From assembly GCA_017451915.1 (NCBI GenBank), contig JAFTNJ010000003.1:17249-81248 (forward strand): a stretch of DNA of 64,000 nucleotides, written 5' to 3'. The position numbers and the translations under genes were made by a program. This stretch comes from Clostridia bacterium. GTDB taxonomy: Bacteria; Bacillota; Clostridia; Oscillospirales; CAG-272. Each line of letters opens with the position of its first letter. Position 1 is the first letter of the stretch. Below, in pieces: positions 39,331 to 54,804 of this stretch. Under the pieces are notes generated by a model. The model saw only the letters and a list, made by a program, of their open reading frames with translations. It ran no database searches and was not told the origin of the DNA.

Positions 39331-40875
39331 ATGAATATTTCAACAACCAAGGCATGGCAGCAATACGAGGCCGGCAAGGAATACAACCGCCGCATCGGAT
39401 TGTATGAGACCATGCGCAGAAACGAACGTTTCTACCGTGGAGATCAGTGGAAAGGCAGTACGTCGGAGCTTCCCCATCCCGTGTTCAATCTGACACGGCG
39501 AATTACCGACTATCTGGTTTGCGCCGTAGCACCGCAAAATCTCTCCATCACCTATACCGACGATAAACTCCCCTTTCTGGAGAACGCGCAGGTAAAAAAT
39601 GCGGTGCTGGAAGGTCTTTCCCTGCTTGGCAAAAACGCCTCCTACCGGTGGAAGCAAAACAAAATGAACACCCAAGCCTACCAGGCTCTGTTGGACGCCG
39701 CCATCTCCGGCGACGGCGTCTTTTACTGCTGGTGGGACGGCTCGGTGAAAAACGGCCAGCCCTTCCTGGGGGACATCCGCACCGATCTGATCGACACGGC
39801 CAACTTTTTTGTGGCCGACGTCAATCGCGCCGACGTACAGTCCCAGGATTACATCCTTCTCTCGGGCCGGGCAACGGTGGAATCCCTCCGTCAGGAAGCC
39901 CGGAACGCGGGAATGAAGGAAGCCGACGTGGAAAAGATCGTTGGGGACTCCAATTTTGAGCCCGCCTTTGGAGATTACTCCAACACCGAGCTCCCCGGAA
40001 GCGACAAGGCCACCTATCTGATCTGCTTCTACCGTGAGGGCAACGAGGTGATCTTTGAAAAATCCACCCGCAACGCGCTGATCCGTCGCGTGAACACCGG
40101 CTTGAAATACTATCCGGTGGCTTATTTCAACTGGTACCGAACCAAAAACAGCTTTCACGGCTCTTCTCCCGTCAGCGACCTGATCGCCAACCAAAAGTAC
40201 ATCAACACCGCCTACGCCATGGCCATGAAGCACATGAGCGACACCGCCTTCTCCAAGATCATCTACGACAAATCCCGAATTCCCGAATGGACCAACGAGG
40301 TGGGAGAGGCCATTGCCGCCGTGGGTGGCGGAAGTGTTTCCGACGCGGTATCGGTGGTGGGTGTGGGAGATATGCAGGAGGGCTACCTGGACCTGATCAC
40401 CAACGTGATCGAAACCACCAAGGATATGATGGGCGCGACCGAATCGGCCCTCGGTGACGAAAAAGCGCAAAATACCAGCGCGATCCTGGCACTTCAAAAA
40501 ACATCTCAGCTTTCCCTGGCACAAGTGCGTTCCAATTTCTGTCAATGCATTGGCGAGTTGGCGGTGATCTGGGCGGATATGCTTTGCGCCTACTGCCCCC
40601 GGGAACGTTTGCTGGCCTTTGACGGAAAGGAAGAGCTGCAGGCCGCATCCCTGAACTACGCCCTTCTCCGCGAGGAGCTGTTGCGTTCCTCGGTGGAGAT
40701 CGAGGACGTTGGCCAGTATACCCCCTCCTATACCGTCACCGTGCTGAACAAGCTTCTGGACAGCGGCCAGCTGACTACCGAGGAGTACTTGCGCCTGCTT
40801 CCCGCGGGCACCGTCATGGATCGGGAGCGACTGATCCACACCATCCAACAGAAAGGAGCGTTAAAAAATGAATGA
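39331..40875 (+). CDS. Phage portal protein
   Basis: A 514-residue protein with portal features: an N-terminal YETMRRNERFYRGDQW segment, the YFNWYRTKNSFHGSSPVSDLIANQKYINTAYAMAMKH core and the helical ETTKDMMGATESALGDEKAQNTSAI region. The portal forms the 12-subunit ring through which DNA enters the capsid. AAGAAAGGAGCAAT precedes the ATG. The 3' end overlaps the next gene by 8 bases. The protein is full length with no sign of decay. Confidence 0.88.
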   Translation: MNISTTKAWQQYEAGKEYNRRIGLYETMRRNERFYRGDQWKGSTSELPHPVFNLTRRITDYLVCAVAPQNLSITYTDDKLPFLENAQVKNAVLEGLSLLGKNASYRWKQNKMNTQAYQALLDAAISGDGVFYCWWDGSVKNGQPFLGDIRTDLIDTANFFVADVNRADVQSQDYILLSGRATVESLRQEARNAGMKEADVEKIVGDSNFEPAFGDYSNTELPGSDKATYLICFYREGNEVIFEKSTRNALIRRVNTGLKYYPVAYFNWYRTKNSFHGSSPVSDLIANQKYINTAYAMAMKHMSDTAFSKIIYDKSRIPEWTNEVGEAIAAVGGGSVSDAVSVVGVGDMQEGYLDLITNVIETTKDMMGATESALGDEKAQNTSAILALQKTSQLSLAQVRSNFCQCIGELAVIWADMLCAYCPRERLLAFDGKEELQAASLNYALLREELLRSSVEIEDVGQYTPSYTVTVLNKLLDSGQLTTEEYLRLLPAGTVMDRERLIHTIQQKGALKNE

Positions 40876-41524
40876 AGAAGTATGTTCGTTTCATCAAGAC
40901 CCATTGGATGCAAATGGGAGCGATCCGATACCGGAGGATGCTGCAAGCCTTCCGGAAACAGAGTCGGTTCTCCCATCTGCGGCAACGATAGAAGAAAGGA
41001 GTGATACCGATGAAGAAAGGAGTGATGAAGTTGAAGAAGATTCTGCAACAGATCCTGAAGATTCTGTTCTTTGTGCGGATCCCGGTCAAGGCGCTGATCC
41101 TGACCCTGGATATGCTCCGGAGCAAGAAGCCCAAGTCGGAATTGATGAGCTGCGAAGCCAACTGACACGGTTGCAAAAGGAGCTGGATCAACGGGACGCC
41201 CTCCTTCGCCGTATGGGGCAGGAGTGCGAGGAATTTGGGGTCCTGTACCCCGAGGTCTCCTTTGCAACACTCCCCGACAGCGTATGGGAGGACGTGCGTC
41301 ACGGGATTCCTCTGGCGGCGGCCTATGCCCTTGCCGAACGGCGCAGATCCCATACCGCCCAATCCGCCCTGCAAAGTAACCAACAAAACGCCACGCGTTC
41401 CGCCGGCGCTCTGGAAGGAACGCAAGCCGATTATTTTTCCCCCGCCGAGGTTCGGGCAATGAACCAAAGCGAGGTGCGCGCCAACTATCACAAAATCATG
41501 CAATCCATGCAAAAATGGAGATAA
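40868..41524 (+). CDS. Putative phage scaffolding protein
   Basis: A 218-residue protein. The first ~95 residues are very acidic and disordered (EERSDTDEERSDEVEED), followed by a coiled coil at about 93-120 (DELRSQLTRLQKELDQRDALLRRMG). The C-terminus is basic (NYHKIMQSMQKWR). This layout, and the place between portal and coat, fit a capsid scaffold. The DNA for the acidic part has a local duplication (GAAAGGAGTGAT twice within 20 bases). No protease domain is fused. Confidence 0.8.
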   Translation: MNEEVCSFHQDPLDANGSDPIPEDAASLPETESVLPSAATIEERSDTDEERSDEVEEDSATDPEDSVLCADPGQGADPDPGYAPEQEAQVGIDELRSQLTRLQKELDQRDALLRRMGQECEEFGVLYPEVSFATLPDSVWEDVRHGIPLAAAYALAERRRSHTAQSALQSNQQNATRSAGALEGTQADYFSPAEVRAMNQSEVRANYHKIMQSMQKWR

Positions 41525-41566
41525 TCCCATTTTAAAATAACAAAACAAGAAAGGAATTATAACATT

Positions 41567-42406
41567 ATGGCTATTACCAATTTTATTCCCACCGTATGGA
41601 GCGAAAATCTTTACCAGGCTCTGGACAAGCAGTACATCGCCGTTGCAAACTGCAACCGCGAATACGAGGGCGATATCCGCGAAAAAGGCAGTGTTGTTAA
41701 GATCTGCGGCATTGGCGACATCAGCGTCTCCGACTACCTCAAGGGCTCGAACATGACCGCCCCCGAAGCCCTCTCCGACACGGTTCGTGAGCTGCACATC
41801 AATCAGGCCAAGTATTTCAACTTCCAGATCGATGACATCGACCGCACCCAGGCAACGCCCCAGCTGATGGCCCTGGCAATGAAGAACGCCGCCAACGCCC
41901 TTGCCAACGCCGCCGACCGCTATATTTACAACCTCTACGATCAGGCCGGTCTTTGCAAGAATCTGACCGTTGCCGGCGGCGACGAGGTGATCAACCACCT
42001 CATTGATGCCCGCACGCACCTGATGGAGAAAAACGTGAGCGATCCCAAGGATATTATCATTGAGGTCTCTCCCGCCGTTGCCTCCATGATCATGAAGGCC
42101 AAGATCAATCTGGCCAGCGACAACACCGACACTCTGGAGAACGGTTGCATTGGCAACGTGGGCGGCTGTAAGGTCTTTGTTTCCAATAACATTGTTCAGG
42201 AAGAGGACGAGAGTGGCATGATCCACAACTGCATTGTACGCACAAAGCGTGCCATCGCCTTTGCCGAGCAGCTCTCCGAGATCGAGGCTTACCGTCCCGA
42301 GCTCCGCTTTGCCGACGCCGTAAAGGGCCTGCATCTCTACGGTGCCAAGGTGGTTTATCCCGAGGAGATGGTTACTCTGAGTCTGACGGTTCCCACCGTT
42401 GCCTAA
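41567..42406 (+). CDS. Phage major capsid protein (P22 coat-like)
   Basis: A 279-residue coat protein. The N-terminus MAITNFIPTVWSENLYQALDK and the stretch KICGIGDISVSDYLKG, followed by INQAKYFNFQIDDIDRTQ, are characteristic of P22 gp5-like coats found in Firmicutes phages. The C-terminus (AVKGLHLYGAKVVYPEEMVTL) is also typical. AAGAAAGGAATTAT lies ahead of the ATG. The HK97 fold is expected; no maturation protease gene is present. Coordinates and frame are intact. Confidence 0.92.
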   Translation: MAITNFIPTVWSENLYQALDKQYIAVANCNREYEGDIREKGSVVKICGIGDISVSDYLKGSNMTAPEALSDTVRELHINQAKYFNFQIDDIDRTQATPQLMALAMKNAANALANAADRYIYNLYDQAGLCKNLTVAGGDEVINHLIDARTHLMEKNVSDPKDIIIEVSPAVASMIMKAKINLASDNTDTLENGCIGNVGGCKVFVSNNIVQEEDESGMIHNCIVRTKRAIAFAEQLSEIEAYRPELRFADAVKGLHLYGAKVVYPEEMVTLSLTVPTVA

Positions 42407-42424
42407 GCGAGGTGAGCGGTCCCT

Positions 42425-42820
42425 ATGACCTGCCGCGAGCTTTACGAGGCAGCTCTGCGCTTGGTGTGTGAAAACGCCGAGAACGGTGATGTTTCCGACT
42501 ACGAGGATCGCGCCGGCTACATTCTGGCCACCGCGGTAACCCAGTGCGCCCCATTGGATGCGCTCTATCGCAAAGCCACGGGCGGTTCCGCCGTGCCCCT
42601 CCCCATGGGCGTTTATCTGGATCTGGACGCGGACTTTCCCCTGAGTGATATCTTCTCGGCCGCCGTGCTCCATTACCTGTGCGCCATGCTGGTGCTGGAC
42701 GAGAACGAAGCCATGAGCGATGCCTTCTTTGAGAAGTACACCGACGCCATTGCGTTGATCCAATCCTCGCTCCCCTTTGTTGGGGAGTCGATCACCGATC
42801 GCTATCAAGAGCTGATCTGA
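42425..42820 (+). CDS. Putative phage head completion/connector protein
   Basis: A 131-residue helical, acidic protein (YEAALRLVCENAENGDVSDYEDRAGYILATAV...). It has no clear motif, but a small helical protein directly after the coat gene usually is the head-tail adaptor (P22 gp4-like). It is the last gene of the phage-like module and a strong terminator follows. AGGTGAGCGGTCCC precedes the ATG; the gap from the coat gene is 18 bases. Confidence 0.6.
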   Translation: MTCRELYEAALRLVCENAENGDVSDYEDRAGYILATAVTQCAPLDALYRKATGGSAVPLPMGVYLDLDADFPLSDIFSAAVLHYLCAMLVLDENEAMSDAFFEKYTDAIALIQSSLPFVGESITDRYQELI

Positions 42821-45844: not shown

Positions 45845-46525
45845 TTAGTCGTGCTTGGTTACAATACAACCCGAGGCTTTGTAAATACTGTTCTCGGGAA
45901 TATATCCGCGCACGGCCGAAAGCGGATATACGTTGCTGTGAGAGCCTATGACGGTGCCGGGATTGAGGACGCTTCCGCATCCCACCTCCACAAAATCTCC
46001 CAGAATGGCTCCCAGCTTGCGGCAACCGGTGGCAATCTTCTCCTCACCTACGCGAATTGCAACGTTGGTCTTGTCGCTCTTTACGTTGGAGGTGATGGCT
46101 CCGGCACCCAGATGGGACTTGTATCCAAGGATCGAATCCCCCACGTAATTGTAGTGCGGGACCTGTACCCCGTCAAACAGGATACAGTTCTTCAGCTCCG
46201 TGGAATTCCCCACTACGGCACCGTCCCCAACCAGGGCCGCGCCGCGAATGAACGCGCAATGCCGCACCTCGGTCCCATGTCCGATGATACAGGGGCCGCT
46301 GATGCTTGCCGTGGGCGCGACCACGGCATCCTTGGCGATCCAAACATCCTCTCCTACGCGGCGATACTCCTCTGCCGAAAGGGTGGCGCCGATCTCCTGG
46401 ATCATCCCGGGAATCCGGGAAAGGATCTCCCAAGGATAGGTAACGCTTGCCAGATAGGGAGCCGCCAGTGTGTGCTCGGGCGAGCCAAACAGGGACGACA
46501 CGGTGAGCAGATCCGTAGCCTTCAT
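45845..46525 (-). CDS. Left-handed beta-helix acyl/nucleotidyl transferase-like protein (GlmU C-terminal type)
   Basis: A 226-residue protein dominated by hexapeptide repeats (WIAKDAVVAPTASISGPCIIG, then VGDGAVVGNS) that fold into a left-handed beta helix. Motifs such as HYNYVGDSILG and NPGTVIGSHSNVYPLSAVRG resemble the acetyltransferase half of GlmU. The pyrophosphorylase half is missing. The ATG at 46525 is chosen because AGGAGG is 7 bases ahead; a GTG at 46531 is closer than ideal. It follows glmM by 2 bases, pointing to UDP-GlcNAc synthesis or a related sugar acyltransfer. Confidence 0.8.
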   Translation of the reverse strand: MKATDLLTVSSLFGSPEHTLAAPYLASVTYPWEILSRIPGMIQEIGATLSAEEYRRVGEDVWIAKDAVVAPTASISGPCIIGHGTEVRHCAFIRGAALVGDGAVVGNSTELKNCILFDGVQVPHYNYVGDSILGYKSHLGAGAITSNVKSDKTNVAIRVGEEKIATGCRKLGAILGDFVEVGCGSVLNPGTVIGSHSNVYPLSAVRGYIPENSIYKASGCIVTKHD

Positions 46526-46527
46526 AC

Positions 46528-47904
46528 TCACGCCTCCTCTGCCAGACCGCGGGAGCGGATCACCTGCAGGATCGCGTCAACCACAGACTCACATTCCTCC
46601 ACCGTAGGTGCCTCGCACATCACGCGGATCACCGGCTCGGTTCCGCTCTTGCGAAGCAGAACGCGCCCCCGCTTGCCCAAGGTCGCCTCGGCCTCGCCAA
46701 TGGCGCGTTGCACCTCCGCATCCTCGCACACCGCCGTTTTGTCGGCTACCCGCAGATTTTTGCAGGTTTGAGGGAGCATCTTGACCGGCTCGGCCAGCTT
46801 GGAAAGAGGTTGCTTGTTACTTACCACAGCCTCCATGATCTTGATGGCCGTCAGGATCCCGTCTCCCGTGGTGGCGAACTTGCTCATGATCACGTGCCCC
46901 GACTGTTCCCCGCCAAGGCAGTTCCCGGTCTCCAGCATATTCTCATAAACGTAGCGATCCCCCACGGTGGTTTGCACGTAGTTGATCCCGGCCGCCTCCA
47001 GGGCACGATAAAGCCCCAGGTTGGACATGATGGTGGTAACTACGGTGTTGTTGACCAGCTGCTCCTTTTTGCGCAGCTCGCAGGCAAGGATATACAGCAT
47101 GTGGTCGCCGTTGACCACCTCACCGTGCTCATCCACCGCAATGCAACGGTCAGCGTCTCCATCAAAGGCAAATCCAATATCCAGCCCCTGCTCCTTGACG
47201 TAGCGCGCCAGGGATTCGATGTGGGTGGAGCCGGCATTGCGATTGATGTTGAGGCCGTTGGGCTCGGCGTGAATGGTGTAGGTGCGGGCGCCCAGGGCGT
47301 CGAACACGCTCTTGGCGATCATCCATGCACTGCCGTTGGCACAGTCCAACCCGATTCGGAAATTCTTAAAGGAATATCCCGAAAGCGAGATCAGATAGCC
47401 AATATAACGGTTTCGTCCGGCGGCGTAGTCGATGATCTGTCCCAGATCCGCTCCCTTGGCAAAGGGCAGATCTGCTTCGGTTACCCCAAGAGATTGCAGA
47501 TCGCCGTCCAGATAGGCTTCGATCCGCTCGATGGTCGTGTCGTCGATCTTCTCCCCCTTTTCATTGACCAGCTTGATGCCATTGTCGGTATAAGGGTTGT
47601 GACTGGCGGAAATCATGATCCCGCAGTCAAAATCGTCTCCTGCCACCGCATAGGAAACGCTTGGGGTGGTTGTGACGTGAAGCATATAAGCATCGGCCCC
47701 CGAGGCAGTCAATCCTGCCACGATGGCGTATTCGAACATATAGCTGGAGCGGCGGGTGTCCTTTCCGATCACCGCCCGCACCTTATGCTCGCCGCCCTTG
47801 GAATAGTACCATCCCAAAAAGCGTCCGATCTTATACGCATGCTCCGACGTCAGCGTAACGCCGGCTTCCCCGCGGAAGCCGTCGGTTCCAAAATATTTTC
47901 CCAT
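46528..47904 (-). CDS. glmM: Phosphoglucosamine mutase
   Basis: A 458-residue alpha-D-phosphohexomutase. KYFGTDGFRG opens the protein, the phosphoserine is S101 in ISASHNPYTDNG, the metal loop is DGDADRC near 240 and the sugar-binding GGEQSGHVI and C-terminal RKSGTEPVIRVM are present. It turns glucosamine-6-phosphate into glucosamine-1-phosphate for peptidoglycan. A near-perfect sigma-A promoter precedes it. The downstream hexapeptide protein likely takes part in the same pathway. Confidence 0.95.
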   Translation of the reverse strand: MGKYFGTDGFRGEAGVTLTSEHAYKIGRFLGWYYSKGGEHKVRAVIGKDTRRSSYMFEYAIVAGLTASGADAYMLHVTTTPSVSYAVAGDDFDCGIMISASHNPYTDNGIKLVNEKGEKIDDTTIERIEAYLDGDLQSLGVTEADLPFAKGADLGQIIDYAAGRNRYIGYLISLSGYSFKNFRIGLDCANGSAWMIAKSVFDALGARTYTIHAEPNGLNINRNAGSTHIESLARYVKEQGLDIGFAFDGDADRCIAVDEHGEVVNGDHMLYILACELRKKEQLVNNTVVTTIMSNLGLYRALEAAGINYVQTTVGDRYVYENMLETGNCLGGEQSGHVIMSKFATTGDGILTAIKIMEAVVSNKQPLSKLAEPVKMLPQTCKNLRVADKTAVCEDAEVQRAIGEAEATLGKRGRVLLRKSGTEPVIRVMCEAPTVEECESVVDAILQVIRSRGLAEEA

Positions 47905-47966
47905 ATTTGTTATTTTCCTCCGTTTTGTAATTTGCGCCTTAAGGAAAAGAAAATAACCTATTGATT

Positions 47967-47995
47967 AGTATAGCACAAAACGGGGAAAATGTCAA
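47967..47995 (-). promoter_or_regulatory. Sigma-A promoter of glmM
   Basis: TTGACA (47995-47990) and TATACT (47972-47967) on the minus strand, 17-bp spacer, about 60 bases before the start. Confidence 0.85.
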
Positions 47996-48026
47996 TGCTA
48001 TTTTCTCTCTGTGCAGGAAAGAGCTG

Positions 48027-49067
48027 TCAATTCTCCGGCGTTTTTTGGGATCTTTGATAGGTGTTCTTCTGACTGCATCCCGCACGGCCGCCACCGGCAC
48101 AAGCGCAAGCGCAGGCGCAAGCACAGCCGCGTCCGCCGCCACCGCCGCCTCTGGAGGCATTGTGTTTGTTTTGGGCTCTGGTATAATGAGGATTGACGTG
48201 TCCGTAAACGTGAACATGGTATCCGTAGCCACGGATAAAGCCCCGTCCCCGATGATAGGAAACGTAACAATCCACGATGTAAACCTCGGCGATCCCCAGC
48301 AAAAGAATGAGAAATACGCAAACAAAGATGCCGGACACCTTTTCCGAATGCAATTCGTCCCAGACGCCGCTGTCGTCAAAGGCGCGGTAGAAGATCGGGG
48401 TTGCGGAGGGAAACGCATCGGAGGTGTAGCGCGCCTGAAGAAGGGCGTAGCTGCCGCAGGGCATACTTCCCTCCCAAACGTAGCCTCCCTCCCGGTGCTG
48501 ACCGTTGGTCTGTACCAGATCCTCGCTCTCCTTCCAGAAGAAGCGGTAATATTCCACGGGGGTAGCGTTGAACCAGCCGGGAACCAGCTCAAAGAAGCGA
48601 CCTTCGTCATCGGCGCAAAGCAGGTTTTGCTGATTGACGGTAAAGGAAAGGGTCAAACGCTCCAAAGCGACGTAGGGACGGTCCAGATAAAGGCGGAGAG
48701 AGGTATAGCCATCCTCCTCGTAACGCTCGGCACGGGCGATGTTGCTTGATAAGGACGCGTGATCCACGGAATAATTTTTATTGGGCATTCCGATCTCCAC
48801 CCAGGTCAGATCCTCCGAGGGATCCAACGCCTGCCATACGATGGTATAGGTCATGTTCAACGTGCCGTTGGATTGCGGCTCCACCACAATGGCATACTCC
48901 TCAATCACGTCCTGGGGCTGAGGGTCAATGTGGCAGGCCGCAAGCAGCAAAATCAACTGCAATAAAACGAGGAAGCAGAGTCCCACCGTGTATCCCGTGG
49001 GAAAGGTTCGGTTCTTTTTAATGTTCTCCTCGGAATAAGGATCGGTTACTGTTTTTTTCTTTGCCAT
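48027..49067 (-). CDS. Membrane protein with Gly-rich (Cys-Ala)5 C-terminal tail
   Basis: A 346-residue protein. A hydrophobic helix at 27-45 ends in LLAAC45, so it is either a TM anchor or a lipobox. Residues 50-240 look like an extracytoplasmic beta domain (EYAIVVEPQSNGTLNMTYTIVW), similar in style to DUF2207-type proteins. A second helix spans 246-268, followed by a His/Tyr/Gly-rich linker. The tail has six Gly (307-312), five Cys-Ala repeats (315-324), then GGGRAGC331. With N-in and two helices the tail would face the cytoplasm. The radical SAM gene lies 4 bases upstream. Function unknown. Confidence 0.75.
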   Translation of the reverse strand: MAKKKTVTDPYSEENIKKNRTFPTGYTVGLCFLVLLQLILLLAACHIDPQPQDVIEEYAIVVEPQSNGTLNMTYTIVWQALDPSEDLTWVEIGMPNKNYSVDHASLSSNIARAERYEEDGYTSLRLYLDRPYVALERLTLSFTVNQQNLLCADDEGRFFELVPGWFNATPVEYYRFFWKESEDLVQTNGQHREGGYVWEGSMPCGSYALLQARYTSDAFPSATPIFYRAFDDSGVWDELHSEKVSGIFVCVFLILLLGIAEVYIVDCYVSYHRGRGFIRGYGYHVHVYGHVNPHYTRAQNKHNASRGGGGGGRGCACACACACAGGGRAGCSQKNTYQRSQKTPEN

Positions 49068-49071
49068 GGGA

Positions 49072-50445
49072 TCACTCTCCTTTCTCTTTGCGGAAGGGGC
49101 AGGACAACGCCTCCACATCTCCCATTCCGCGCAGGGCCTGACATTTGGGATGCTTCCAAATATCGGCAAACTCTTGCGTCAGTAAATTTCCAAGTCCCGC
49201 GTCGCTTCCCAGCCAGCTCTGACAGGGCACCGCGGTACCGTCGGGGGCCACCGCCATATTGGAAAGGGCCGCGCCGCAAGCGGGAACGTTCATGGAAAGG
49301 GACTCCAAGCGCTCCTTGGAAATCAAGCCGGGGGAGGTGAAGTCGATCTCCATGCCATTGGCGTCGCAAAAGGCCTTGGCTTGACGGACGATGTCCCAAA
49401 GCTCGTCGGAGGTCAGGTCATTTTCCGGATGTCCCTCGGTGGCGCCACCCGTGCAGATGAGTCCGCTCAGGGTCACAAAGCGTACCCCAAGGCTGTGCAA
49501 AAAGTTCAGGGTAGCAGAATAATCGCGGTTCTGACGGCACAGAGGCGTGTTGACACTAACGTCCAGCCCCGCCGCCAGGGCATTGCGAATGCCCTGCACC
49601 GTACGGGCGTGTCCCTCGCTCCCCACCAGGGCGTTGTGAACCGTTGCGTCCGACGAATAGAGGGTGACCTGCAGGCTGTCCAGGCTGGCCTCCTTCAGCG
49701 ATGCCACCAGCTCCGGCGTCAACAGCACGCCGTTGGTATTCAAGCGGGTCACAAACCACTTGGAATAGGAGATCAGCTCGGCAAGATCGGTACGTTGCGT
49801 GGGCTCGCCCCCGGTAAAGGTAAGCATGGGTACGCCAGCGCGACGCAGCTTGTCGATGATCTTCTTCCAATCCTGGGTCTCAAGCTCCCGCATGGCGCCA
49901 AAATGCTGTCCCGCCGCATAGCAGAAGCGGCATTTTTGGTTGCACTTCCAGTTGCCTTCCCCGTCGGTCATGGCACTGACCATAAGATCCATTCGATGGG
50001 GGGCCTGCATATACGGGGCATATTCCCGCACCGAAAGACGCTCCGGGGTCACCTCGGGATCCTCTCCCCGTGCCACGGCAAACAGCATATCCATCATCCA
50101 TTCCAGATCCTCGCCAAGCTTTTCGCGTCCAATCAAGGGATAGGCTTTTCGACAGCGAGCAAGGGTATGCTCCAGGATGTCGGCCTCGTCCTTCTCGGTG
50201 ATGGGGCAACCGTCGTAGCGATTGACCTCCTCCATCAAAGAGGAAAGCAGAATGGCCCAGGAATACCCCAGGGGCAACAGATAGTAGCCGTTGAGCACGG
50301 CGATGTAGGAGGGATTACCGAACAGACGGAAGCGCGGAGGAATCAGGTGGATCCGCACCACGCCCGGCCCCTCGGGATTGAAGGTACAGTGACACACGCC
50401 CTTTTGATAAGCGCGGTACTGGGCGATCTTGTTGGAAATACTCAT
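49072..50445 (-). CDS. Radical SAM/SPASM-like protein
   Basis: A 457-residue radical SAM enzyme. The cluster motif is C168-x3-C172-x2-C175 (KCNQKCRFCYA), GGEPT follows, and the C-terminus has SPASM/auxiliary-cluster features: NVPACGAALSNMAVAPDGTAVPC and later SCPFRKE. About 160 residues lie before the radical SAM core and contain HLIPPRFRLFGN, a region I cannot place. Such enzymes often install cross-links in peptides or proteins. The next gene, 4 bases on, encodes the Cys-Ala tail protein, a natural candidate substrate. AGGTGAAGCT precedes the ATG. Confidence 0.88.
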   Translation of the reverse strand: MSISNKIAQYRAYQKGVCHCTFNPEGPGVVRIHLIPPRFRLFGNPSYIAVLNGYYLLPLGYSWAILLSSLMEEVNRYDGCPITEKDEADILEHTLARCRKAYPLIGREKLGEDLEWMMDMLFAVARGEDPEVTPERLSVREYAPYMQAPHRMDLMVSAMTDGEGNWKCNQKCRFCYAAGQHFGAMRELETQDWKKIIDKLRRAGVPMLTFTGGEPTQRTDLAELISYSKWFVTRLNTNGVLLTPELVASLKEASLDSLQVTLYSSDATVHNALVGSEGHARTVQGIRNALAAGLDVSVNTPLCRQNRDYSATLNFLHSLGVRFVTLSGLICTGGATEGHPENDLTSDELWDIVRQAKAFCDANGMEIDFTSPGLISKERLESLSMNVPACGAALSNMAVAPDGTAVPCQSWLGSDAGLGNLLTQEFADIWKHPKCQALRGMGDVEALSCPFRKEKGE

Positions 50446-50485
50446 AGCTTCACCTCAAAAAATGATTTCAAAAAACCTTTCATTT

Positions 50486-50514
50486 ATTATATCACATCTT
50501 TGGCTCGTTGAAAA
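50486..50514 (-). promoter_or_regulatory. Promoter for the radical SAM operon
   Basis: Extended -10 TGATATAAT (TATAAT at 50491-50486) with a weak -35 TTTTCA 17 bases away. It lies in the 358-bp gap 50446-50803 shared with the pckG promoter; I see no other feature in that gap. Confidence 0.55.
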
Positions 50515-50695
50515 GAGAAAAGTCAAAAATGGATTTTAAAACGACAAAAAATGCAAAAATCAAGTTTTTTGACGCTATCCGGTTTCTTTTTCTACGCATT
50601 TTTGCAAATTTGACATTCAAACGATGCATATTCTCCAGCTTGGAAGCCGAAAACATTTAAAATTATGAACAAATCGTAACCTTTTGAAAAGGCTA

Positions 50696-50724
50696 TTGAA
50701 AAAAGACGAAAAAGAGTGTAAAAT
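50696..50724 (+). promoter_or_regulatory. Sigma-A promoter of pckG
   Basis: TTGAAA (50696-50701) and TAAAAT (50719-50724), 17-bp spacer, leaving an untranslated leader of about 70 bases. Confidence 0.65.
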
Positions 50725-50803
50725 ATATACTGGGTGACAAGGTGGCTTGTTACCAATATTGTTGTAAATTGAAATAATTCACTATAAAAAAAGGAGCAAC
50801 ATC

Positions 50804-52588
50804 ATGACCAACAACAAGCATGTTTTGGACTGGATCAAGGAAATGTCCAATCTGGTTCAGCCCGAGAAGATCGTTTGGATCGACGGAAGCGAGGAACAGA
50901 CCAACGCTCTGCGCGCAGAAGCTTGCGCCAGCGGTGAGTTGGAGCCTCTGAACCCCGAAAAGTACCCCAACTGCTACCTGCACAGAACCGCTGTGAACGA
51001 CGTAGCCCGCGTTGAGAACAGAACCTTCATCTGCACCCGCAAGAAGGAAGATGCCGGTACCATCAACAACTGGATGGATCCCCAGGAGTGCTACGCTACC
51101 CTCTCCAAGCTCTACAAGAACTCCTACAAGGGCAAGACCATGTACGTAATTCCCTACTCCATGGGTGTGGTTGGCTCTGATTTTGCAAAGATCGGTATTG
51201 AGCTGACTGACTCGATCTACGTGGTTCTCAACATGATCATCATGACCCGTGTTGGCAAGAACGTAATTGAAGCCTTGGGCGACTCCGCCGATTTCGTTAA
51301 GGGTCTGCACGCCGTTGCTGACTGCGACGAGGAGAAGCGCTACATCTGCCACTTCCCCGAGGACAACACCATCTGGTCGGTCAACTCCGGCTACGGCGGA
51401 AACGTTCTGCTGGGTAAGAAGTGCTTCGCACTCCGCATTGCATCCTACCTGGGACGCAAGGAGGGCTGGATGGCCGAGCATATGCTGATTCTGGGCCTGG
51501 AAAATCCCCAGGGCGAGATCAAGTATATTTCCGCCGCATTCCCCTCTGCCTGCGGTAAGACCAATCTGGCAATGCTCATTCCTCCCGCCATCTTCAAGAA
51601 GGCCGGCTATAAGGTTTGGACCGTAGGTGACGACATTGCCTGGATCCGTGTGGGCGAGGACGGCGGCCTCTACGCCGTGAACCCCGAGAACGGCTTCTTT
51701 GGCGTGGCTCCCGGTACCAACGAGCACTCCAACTACAACGCTCTGATGACCGCGCAGAAGAACTGCATCTTCACCAACGTGTGCCACAACCTGGACGACA
51801 ACACCGTTTGGTGGGAAGGTCTGGATAACAATCCTCCCAAGAACGCGCTCAACTGGAGAGGCGAGAAGTGGGATTACACCAAGTACGACAAGAACGACAA
51901 GGTTGGTACCTCCGGTGCTCACCCCAACTCCCGTTTCACCGCAATGGCATCCAACTGCCCCTGCATTTCTCCCGAGTTCAACAGCCTTAAGGGCGTTCCG
52001 CTGACCGCCATCATCTTTGGTGGACGTCGCGCAAAGACCGCTCCCCTGGTTTACGAATCCCGCAACTGGCAGCACGGTACCTTCGTAGGCTCCATCATGG
52101 CCTCCGAGACCACCGCAGCCGCAGCCGGTGCCGTTGGTGTGGTTCGCCGCGATCCCATGGCTATGCGTCCCTTCGTTGGCTATGATATGGGCGACTACTT
52201 TGCTCACTGGTTGAGCATGGGCAAGAAGATCCCCAACGCTCCCAAGATCTTCCACGTAAACTGGTTCCGCACCGATGCCGAAGGCCACTTCATTTGGCCC
52301 GGATTTGGTGACAACATGAGAGTTCTGCTCTGGATCCTGGACCGTTGCGCAGGCAAGGTAGACGCTGTGGAAACGCCCATCGGCTTTGTTCCCAAGGCAG
52401 AGGACATCAATATTGAGGGACTTGAGGACGTGACCATTGACACCATCCGCGACCTGCTCACCATTGACACCGAGAGCTGGCTGGAAGACGTTGAGAACAT
52501 CAAGGCCTTCTACAAGCAGATCGGTGACCGCGTTCCCGCAGAGCTCTACGACGAGCTTGCCATTCTGGAAGCAAACCTGAAGAAGTAA
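50804..52588 (+). CDS. pckG: Phosphoenolpyruvate carboxykinase (GTP)
   Basis: A 594-residue GTP-type PEPCK. The P-loop FPSACGKTN is at 246-254 with hyper-reactive C250 and K252; YGGNVLLGKKC and FGGRRAKTAPLVYE are further signatures of this class. It interconverts oxaloacetate and phosphoenolpyruvate with GTP/GDP. Most Firmicutes use the unrelated ATP enzyme; in anaerobes this one can also run toward CO2 fixation. Codon use is strongly biased (for example AAG, AAC, CTG), suggesting high expression. AAAAAAGGAGCAACATC precedes the ATG. Confidence 0.97.
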   Translation: MTNNKHVLDWIKEMSNLVQPEKIVWIDGSEEQTNALRAEACASGELEPLNPEKYPNCYLHRTAVNDVARVENRTFICTRKKEDAGTINNWMDPQECYATLSKLYKNSYKGKTMYVIPYSMGVVGSDFAKIGIELTDSIYVVLNMIIMTRVGKNVIEALGDSADFVKGLHAVADCDEEKRYICHFPEDNTIWSVNSGYGGNVLLGKKCFALRIASYLGRKEGWMAEHMLILGLENPQGEIKYISAAFPSACGKTNLAMLIPPAIFKKAGYKVWTVGDDIAWIRVGEDGGLYAVNPENGFFGVAPGTNEHSNYNALMTAQKNCIFTNVCHNLDDNTVWWEGLDNNPPKNALNWRGEKWDYTKYDKNDKVGTSGAHPNSRFTAMASNCPCISPEFNSLKGVPLTAIIFGGRRAKTAPLVYESRNWQHGTFVGSIMASETTAAAAGAVGVVRRDPMAMRPFVGYDMGDYFAHWLSMGKKIPNAPKIFHVNWFRTDAEGHFIWPGFGDNMRVLLWILDRCAGKVDAVETPIGFVPKAEDINIEGLEDVTIDTIRDLLTIDTESWLEDVENIKAFYKQIGDRVPAELYDELAILEANLKK

Positions 52589-52599
52589 TTCATAAATAT

Positions 52600-52637
52600 A
52601 AAAAACGGCGTTGAGATCATCTCAACGCCGTTTTTTT
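52600..52637. terminator. Strong bidirectional terminator
   Basis: AACGGCGTTGAGAT and its complement form a long stem with A and T tracts on both sides, between the convergent pckG and ligA. Confidence 0.93.
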
Positions 52638-52641
52638 GCGT

Positions 52642-54804
<2,163 letters not shown>

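Follow-up and report, generated by a model that had tools for sequence, protein, structure and literature searches.

Why should a radical S-adenosylmethionine (SAM) enzyme be encoded directly ahead of a membrane protein that ends in a run of Cys-Ala repeats? The question is raised by a 64,000-nucleotide stretch of Clostridia bacterium DNA (contig JAFTNJ010000003.1, positions 17,249 to 81,248 of the forward strand; hereafter the window), which holds the following pair:

49072..50445, minus strand: radical SAM/SPASM enzyme P0002, 457 residues (Pfam Radical_SAM and SPASM above cut-offs; aligned with 59 relatives)
48027..49067, minus strand: membrane protein P0001 with a Cys-Ala tail, 346 residues (translation and relatives)
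49077..49081, minus strand: AGGAG, ribosome-binding-like, for the P0001 gene, within the 3′ end of the enzyme gene (sequence)
48066..48149, minus strand: tail Gly6-RG-(Cys-Ala)5-GGGRAGCSQK, residues 307-334, presumed modification site (translation, relatives, codon spellings)

The P0001 gene starts 4 bases past the enzyme stop codon, with AGGAG ahead of its start. An initial annotation had described a SPASM-like radical SAM gene and, 4 bases downstream, a two-helix protein ending in Gly6-(Cys-Ala)5. The genes, domains and segments hold; its title left out the Arg-Gly between Gly6 and (Cys-Ala)5, as the C-terminus reads GGGGGG-RG-CACACACACA-GGG-RAGC-SQKNTYQRSQKTPEN (the end after the second hydrophobic segment is GGGGGGRGCACACACACAGGGRAGCSQKNTYQRSQKTPEN). 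Here we report that enzyme and tail protein are a real, recurrent two-gene cassette of gut and rumen bacteria. From comparative sequence evidence, we consider it probable that they form an enzyme and protein-substrate pair in which the tail is modified while the protein stays in the membrane.

The pairing was examined in loci selected on the tail and tail protein, the enzyme not being used. When named-species genomes were scanned with the aligned tail proteins, at least 592 stretches showed the tail pattern; 167 of these encode a relative, and the best 80 of the 167 were kept. The initial annotation had suggested checking how often tail homologues have a neighbouring radical SAM gene: 79 of the 80 loci have a cognate enzyme gene next to the tail gene and on its strand, upstream in 77 and downstream in 2 (partial enzymes at contig ends were counted as present, e.g., in L045, L049, L051, L070, L074, and L101). 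The outcome that it had named as refuting, tail homologues mostly lacking such a neighbour, is not what is seen. The two genes are also inherited together. Among 391 genomes of the class, profiles of the tail alone, of the enzyme (E up to 1e-50), and of the outside domain without the tail match 11 genomes each, and these are the identical 11, the window's own included. The chance of two such sets would be 1.4e-21 if genomes were independent, which they are not, 4 of the 11 being from one genus. Apparent mismatches between ectodomain and tail in the tail-less search are contig ends. In G434 and G290, the contig with the ectodomain breaks off in the tail or Gly linker and the tail lies on another contig end, the two presumably being joined; in the second G251 copy, a contig end cuts the ectodomain, and any tail would fall beyond the contig.

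With whole P0001 as query, 4 of 60 genomes match, the window's own and 3 more, all within the 35 same-genus genomes searched. The tail proteins of these 3 relatives are 51-56% identical to P0001 and the enzymes directly upstream 65-68% identical to P0002; CACACACACAGGGRAGCSQK is letter-identical in all 3, one having an extra Cys-Ala, which speaks against a chance sequence. This patchy presence in the genus suggests a cassette that is gained and lost, though many of these genomes are incomplete. P0001 alone found no relative in the genome contig collection and none in plasmids, and the alignment was needed. Of the titles of the 80 loci, 33 name Lachnospiraceae and most others Clostridia or Clostridiales; Eggerthellaceae, Coriobacteriaceae, Bacilli, Anaeroplasma, and Acholeplasmatales also occur, and L030 is a metagenome bin labelled Pseudobutyrivibrio ruminis. 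Titles that give a source point mostly to rumen or gut. The cassette is also present in L043, labelled Victivallales, a label far from the rest and possibly the result of misbinning or mislabelling.

What is conserved in the tail is its protein sequence. The initial annotation had argued this from the mixed codons of the P0001 repeat (TGT/TGC for Cys, GCT/GCC for Ala), and the family bears it out: CACACAGGGRA has 78 different DNA spellings in 78 tails, and therefore the protein sequence is what is kept. DNA slippage was rejected on this count. The comparison covers 79 tails from 74 of the 80 loci, 78 of them used for codon spellings; L053, L071, L077, and L093 were excluded for a split tail frame and L038 and L079 because their contigs end in the tail. 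Ahead of the AGGG element there are 5-9 Cys, and the repeat is followed by a constant end, GGGRAGC[ST]xKDFY. The search pattern fixes the last three Cys; of the 317 residues that follow the remaining Cys, 292 are Ala, 19 Val, 4 Gly, 1 Phe, and 1 Ser. In six paralogue pairs sharing one enzyme gene, outside domains are 44-63% identical and tails 86-95%, but these pairs add little because random pairs show the same contrast (46% and 86% on average).

Distant relatives of the enzyme were found in 12 genomes besides the window's own, of 299 in the phylum (E 1.6e-42 to 2.4e-102). Each of the 12 has next to it a gene for a Cys-repeat protein, with (CA)n, CVSCACA, or (ACHS)n. Six of these neighbours have an outside domain that the profile recognises (E 4e-23 to 3e-31), together with CVSCACACVSCACACACAGG-type tails, L202 being contig-cut. 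Among the remaining six, CACACACACASSGGCT forms the end of three and CACACACACAGGGGCT that of one, and the last two finish with nine or ten (ACHS)-type units; the outside-domain profile gave no match in these six bodies (E limit 10, HMMER filters on; the L208 frame lacks the start of the body). The tail is kept where the body has changed. As a control, we took 20 loci of ordinary proteins of the DUF2207 family, which P0001 faintly resembles (17 of 60 genomes, flanks mostly 4-5 kb). Searched with the enzyme profile at E 1e-5, these loci gave no matching frame; none of their frames contains (CA)3, and the last 60 residues hold 0-2 Cys in the 19 complete proteins, the twentieth being contig-cut (for control locus L217, the same as L170, a 655-residue frame was used). 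With a Cys repeat beside 12 of 12 distant enzymes despite six unmatched bodies, and with DUF2207 loci free of the enzyme, the enzyme follows the tail and not the body. The tail is therefore very probably the enzyme's substrate, and this comparative evidence supports part of what the initial annotation proposed, a substrate tail on a membrane protein, the thioether links and the uncleaved product staying conjectural. The two tails of nine or ten ACHS-type units (L207 6155-7849, L208 3163-4629) recall the ACGX system by name.

P0002 has the parts listed below, with Pfam matches to Radical_SAM (E 1.3e-22) and SPASM (E 6.5e-8):

49966..50445, minus strand: N-terminal domain of the enzyme, residues 1-160, possibly peptide-binding and similar to a RiPP recognition element (RRE; RiPP, ribosomally synthesized and post-translationally modified peptide) (own conserved core)
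49921..49944, minus strand: CxxxCxxC radical SAM cluster motif, residues 168-175 (its three Cys kept throughout the 88-enzyme alignment)
49099..49278, minus strand: reduced SPASM region, residues 390-449, with Cys 390, 408, 435, and 449 (88-enzyme alignment)

In the alignment of 60 of the 73 enzymes at hand, Pfam SPASM is present in all 60, and the N-terminal domain keeps a core of H19, P24, G28, R31, P36, N52-G53, and P58. In the alignment of 88, Cys 390 and 408 are kept in 88, Cys 449 in 85, and Cys 435 in 70. The window's enzyme subfamily has mainly four SPASM Cys and the distant group a fuller C..C.....C...C set; in our comparison, the reduced set is reminiscent of the twitch-type domain described for SkfB (PMC8326336). 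Among solved structures, the nearest by sequence is the sactisynthase SkfB (E 3.9e-20); a tetraether synthase, PqqE, BtrN, and others come next. The match to PDB 5wgg is weaker (E 1.1e-8); we take 5wgg to be CteB and 5v1q to be SuiB. Judged by sequence comparison, neither protein is given a name by any curated model. P0001 has no family match in Pfam and NCBIfam at E 1. P0002 matched 66 NCBIfam models, and none of the 25 best comes close to its own curated cut-off, with P0002 alone and likewise with the 60-enzyme alignment.

The layout of P0001 ahead of the tail is as follows:

48933..48989, minus strand: first hydrophobic segment, residues 27-45 (hydropathy)
48354..48920, minus strand: presumed outside domain, residues 50-238, with a faint likeness to the DUF2207 N-terminal domain (36-sequence alignment; hhalign 55%)
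48273..48329, minus strand: second hydrophobic segment, residues 247-265 (hydropathy)

A simple hydropathy count gave two hydrophobic segments for 65 of the 80 tail proteins, three for 10, and one for 5. The tail side of the last segment is more positive than the other side in 66 proteins, equal in 5, and less positive in 9, with mean net charges of +2.0 and −2.2, respectively; therefore, the tail should be cytoplasmic, together with the enzyme, as the initial annotation had predicted. The partner protein has 307-505 residues in 77 of 79 cases, the 269 and 285 residues of L062 and L035 both being cut.

P0001 itself has no Pfam match to DUF2207 (PF09972). At E<1, this family matches 7 of 12 and 22 of 38 members, with a best E of 0.0022, and one member scores 14.3 bits against a gathering score of 24.4 (the tail-protein alignment holds 38 of the 80, and the outside-domain alignment 36 of those 38). 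Alignment of the outside domain with 20 DUF2207 sequences gave hhalign 55% and P 1.2e-4 over 161 columns, L170 and others having been picked by longest frame. Like the P0001 family, DUF2207 proteins have a signal, a beta-rich outside domain, and a membrane segment, and 12 of the 20 ordinary ones share with the tail proteins a Gly-rich C-terminal stretch. They differ in that the 19 complete proteins lack a Cys-rich tail and the 20 loci lack such an enzyme nearby. Genes of TPM-domain and LemA proteins adjoin those of the f154 relatives, on Pfam evidence in L197; by resemblance of translations, TPM likeness is seen in L198-L201 and LemA likeness in L198 and L200, and L202 ends in the tail. DUF2207-LemA gene pairs have been reported (PMC12631010), and a Streptococcus mutans DUF2207 mutant is described as stress-sensitive (PMC10457818). 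By analogy with DUF2207, LemA, and TPM proteins, the physiological role might lie in membrane or envelope stress, but this is only a guess.

The mechanism that we propose would begin with insertion of the membrane protein, leaving the beta-rich domain outside and the Gly-rich Cys-Ala tail inside the cell. The cytoplasmic enzyme would bind the tail protein, perhaps through the GGGRAGC[ST]xKDFY end and its own N-terminal domain, generate a 5′-deoxyadenosyl radical, abstract a hydrogen atom from tail residues, and link Cys sulfur to them. Ala alpha-carbons would be the likeliest acceptors, giving several Cys-S-Cα(Ala) thioethers (sactionines) and converting a flexible tail with many thiols into a stiff one with few. 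The modified product would remain attached to the membrane protein. The acceptor Met of the SkfB substrate can be replaced by Ala with activity retained (PMC8326336), and in ruminococcin C1 Ala is a natural acceptor (PMC12395415, PMC6779426). Because of these two precedents, Cys-S to Ala-Cα thioethers are the most economical proposal and, by analogy, our best guess for the bond. In a more specific version, every Cys sulfur would bond to the alpha-carbon of the Ala next to it, giving consecutive six-membered thiomorpholinone rings that would form a rigid rod at the inner membrane face. We think this form improbable; if true, it would be a new kind of protein backbone and would explain both the Cys/Ala alternation and the freely varying copy number. 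One such ring, from Cys and N-methylornithine, is known in enteropeptin (PMC12395415), the adjacency of the two residues being deduced from ring size.

Several points weigh against a modified, retained tail. One of the 80 loci, L062, has no enzyme, its tail gene being cut short at the start and lying beside an unrelated large frame. The charge bias is reversed in 9 of the 80 proteins. Tail conservation in the 80 loci is biased since tail peptides were used in the search, and the same loci supplied the sequences for the ectodomain profile. The SkfB match spans the radical SAM core, which is common to enzymes of other chemistry (PqqE, BtrN, tetraether synthase). The N-terminus is only a candidate RRE: against 25 PqqD sequences, hhalign gave 26% and P 7e-4 over 31 columns, PqqD is not among the 25 families listed of 65 Pfam families for the 60 enzymes, and no RRE protein is among the names of the 13 PDB matches. 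In (ACHS)n, His follows Cys, hence Ala as the following acceptor is not general; Ala precedes Cys in 15 of 16 counted, and closure of a six-membered ring is therefore also possible there. Finally, the enzyme may depend on the protein for a purpose other than tail modification, which could also account for co-inheritance.

The alternatives below exclude neither one another nor thioether formation on a retained tail, and the probabilities that we attach to them do not sum to one. The strongest, which we hold to be possible but doubtful, is that the tail undergoes a different change: epimerisation, a beta-thioether (lanthionine-like, to the Ala methyl), or a change at Gly, Arg, or Ser of GGGRAGCS. 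Radical SAM enzymes of RiPP pathways do include epimerases and makers of beta- and gamma-thioethers (PMC8326336), and GGGRAGC is as constant as the repeat in the 79 tails, though the search pattern included part of it. However, the strict Cys-Ala alternation and the variable copy number point to the repeat itself.

It is less probable, and we judge it unlikely, that the tail is a CxCxC site for a metal or cluster at which the enzyme forms no bond, the enzyme using the tail as a docking site or cluster donor or having another target. Alternating Cys make a good thiol chelator in principle. Two CxxC pairs lie outside the tail in 49 of the 80 tail proteins, and three in 2, and zinc-ribbon models match a few of the 38 aligned proteins (4 and 3 members). 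A chelator has no need for Ala between the Cys, yet Ala follows in nearly all cases counted above (Gly in only 4, Ser in 1), and enzyme and tail share the same genomes.

Very doubtful, in our view, is that the protein is an unusually large, membrane-anchored RiPP precursor whose modified tail is cut off and released as a peptide. The position of the tail would suit release: in 79 proteins only 0-43 residues separate the motif from the C-terminus, and a flexible linker rich in Gly or Ser precedes the tail. The related SkfB and AlbA make released peptides (PMC8326336). Against release, the tail is probably cytoplasmic, and when frames of at least 100 residues were clustered, no third gene recurred in more than 13 of the 80 loci, the clusters being unannotated and many loci contig-cut. 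Moreover, in L198 (2367-4499) and L200 (2446-4389), the frame that encodes the outside domain does not stop after the Cys tail but continues through a further membrane segment into a TPM-like domain. In these two the tail may thus form an internal loop, which speaks against release. That the pairing is a sampling accident or the repeat a product of DNA slippage can be dismissed: the repeat is G+C-rich and several contigs end in repeat or linker, but the 78 codon spellings, the adjacency in 79 loci, and the identical distribution in 391 genomes all contradict it.

We also made some observations on the tail genes and on the rest of the window. Metagenome contigs L024, L026, L035, L038, L076, L079, L154, L158, and L202 end in the tail, just past it, or in the Gly linker, and many tail proteins in databases may be truncated by such contig ends. 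In L023 (8528-9328) and G374 (C1, ~2354704-2357495), a frame that is transposase-like by translation splits the tail gene, which looks interrupted, and the enzyme gene upstream is intact. CxxC pairs between membrane segment and tail give L019, L020, and L022 a zinc-ribbon-like look. In the window, an Rfam scan of 46000-52700 found no family at gathering score. Frames at 39331-42820 on the plus strand resemble phage portal, scaffold, and capsid genes (translations only), and a prophage remnant is possible.

Most of what is known of radical SAM peptide chemistry comes from small peptides that are secreted. In literature searches of open-licence papers, we found, among the matches listed, no description of this pair of enzyme and tail protein and no paper joining radical SAM enzymes with DUF2207. 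If the comparative evidence is read correctly, many bacteria of gut and rumen apply radical SAM chemistry to the tail of a membrane protein that they retain. This would give a recurrent unnamed family a defined enzyme-substrate pair with a simple repeat, connect radical SAM chemistry with the poorly understood DUF2207/LemA/TPM membrane proteins, and possibly yield a new cross-linked, polymer-like protein element.

SCIFF precursors are small six-Cys peptides without membrane segments, whereas the partner here is a 346-residue membrane protein. The SCIFF (ranthipeptide) maturases such as CteB, to which the initial annotation had compared the enzyme, are alike in being radical SAM/SPASM enzymes that act on a Cys-rich sequence; beyond this the comparison is loose, and SkfB is closer among solved structures. 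With SkfB and the sactisynthases (sactipeptides: subtilosin, SKF, ruminococcin C, enteropeptin), the cassette shares a radical SAM enzyme with a SPASM- or twitch-type C-terminus for an auxiliary cluster (SPASM and Cys 390 and 408 being universal in the alignments); in those systems Cys is the donor and Ala a known acceptor, as we propose for the tail. Sactipeptide precursors are described as short, with leaders of 8-29 and cores of 26-44 residues (PMC8326336), compared with a membrane protein of 300-500 residues here. In place of a short precursor with protease and exporter genes, we found a large partner with hydrophobic segments in 80 of 80 and no recurrent third gene; P0002 scores 47 bits with the SkfB equivalog TIGR04403, whose cut-off is 300. 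Since it departs from defining features of both, we class the cassette as neither a sactipeptide nor a SCIFF system.

Two further systems can be compared for their repeats. The model for the ACGX-system radical SAM enzyme, TIGR04340, matches 50 of the 60 enzymes at E ≤1e-10 (best 7.5e-18). Its cut-off is 400 bits; the 25 top-scoring models for P0002, which go down to 45.1 bits, do not include it, and the distant relative L203 reaches 63.3. The name ACGX presumably refers to Ala-Cys-Gly-X repeats, which would be close to the (ACHS)n variant. Cluster 59 is similar in having a dipeptide repeat, Asp-Cys (up to six), beside a radical SAM enzyme of unknown chemistry (PMC9062424). It differs in that the repeat is Asp-Cys instead of Cys-Ala and is described as belonging to a peptide encoded beside a recombinase, not to a membrane protein. 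The kind of chemistry proposed for the cassette is already known; its presumed substrate sets it apart, being a membrane protein that is retained and carries a tail of Cys-Ala dipeptides.

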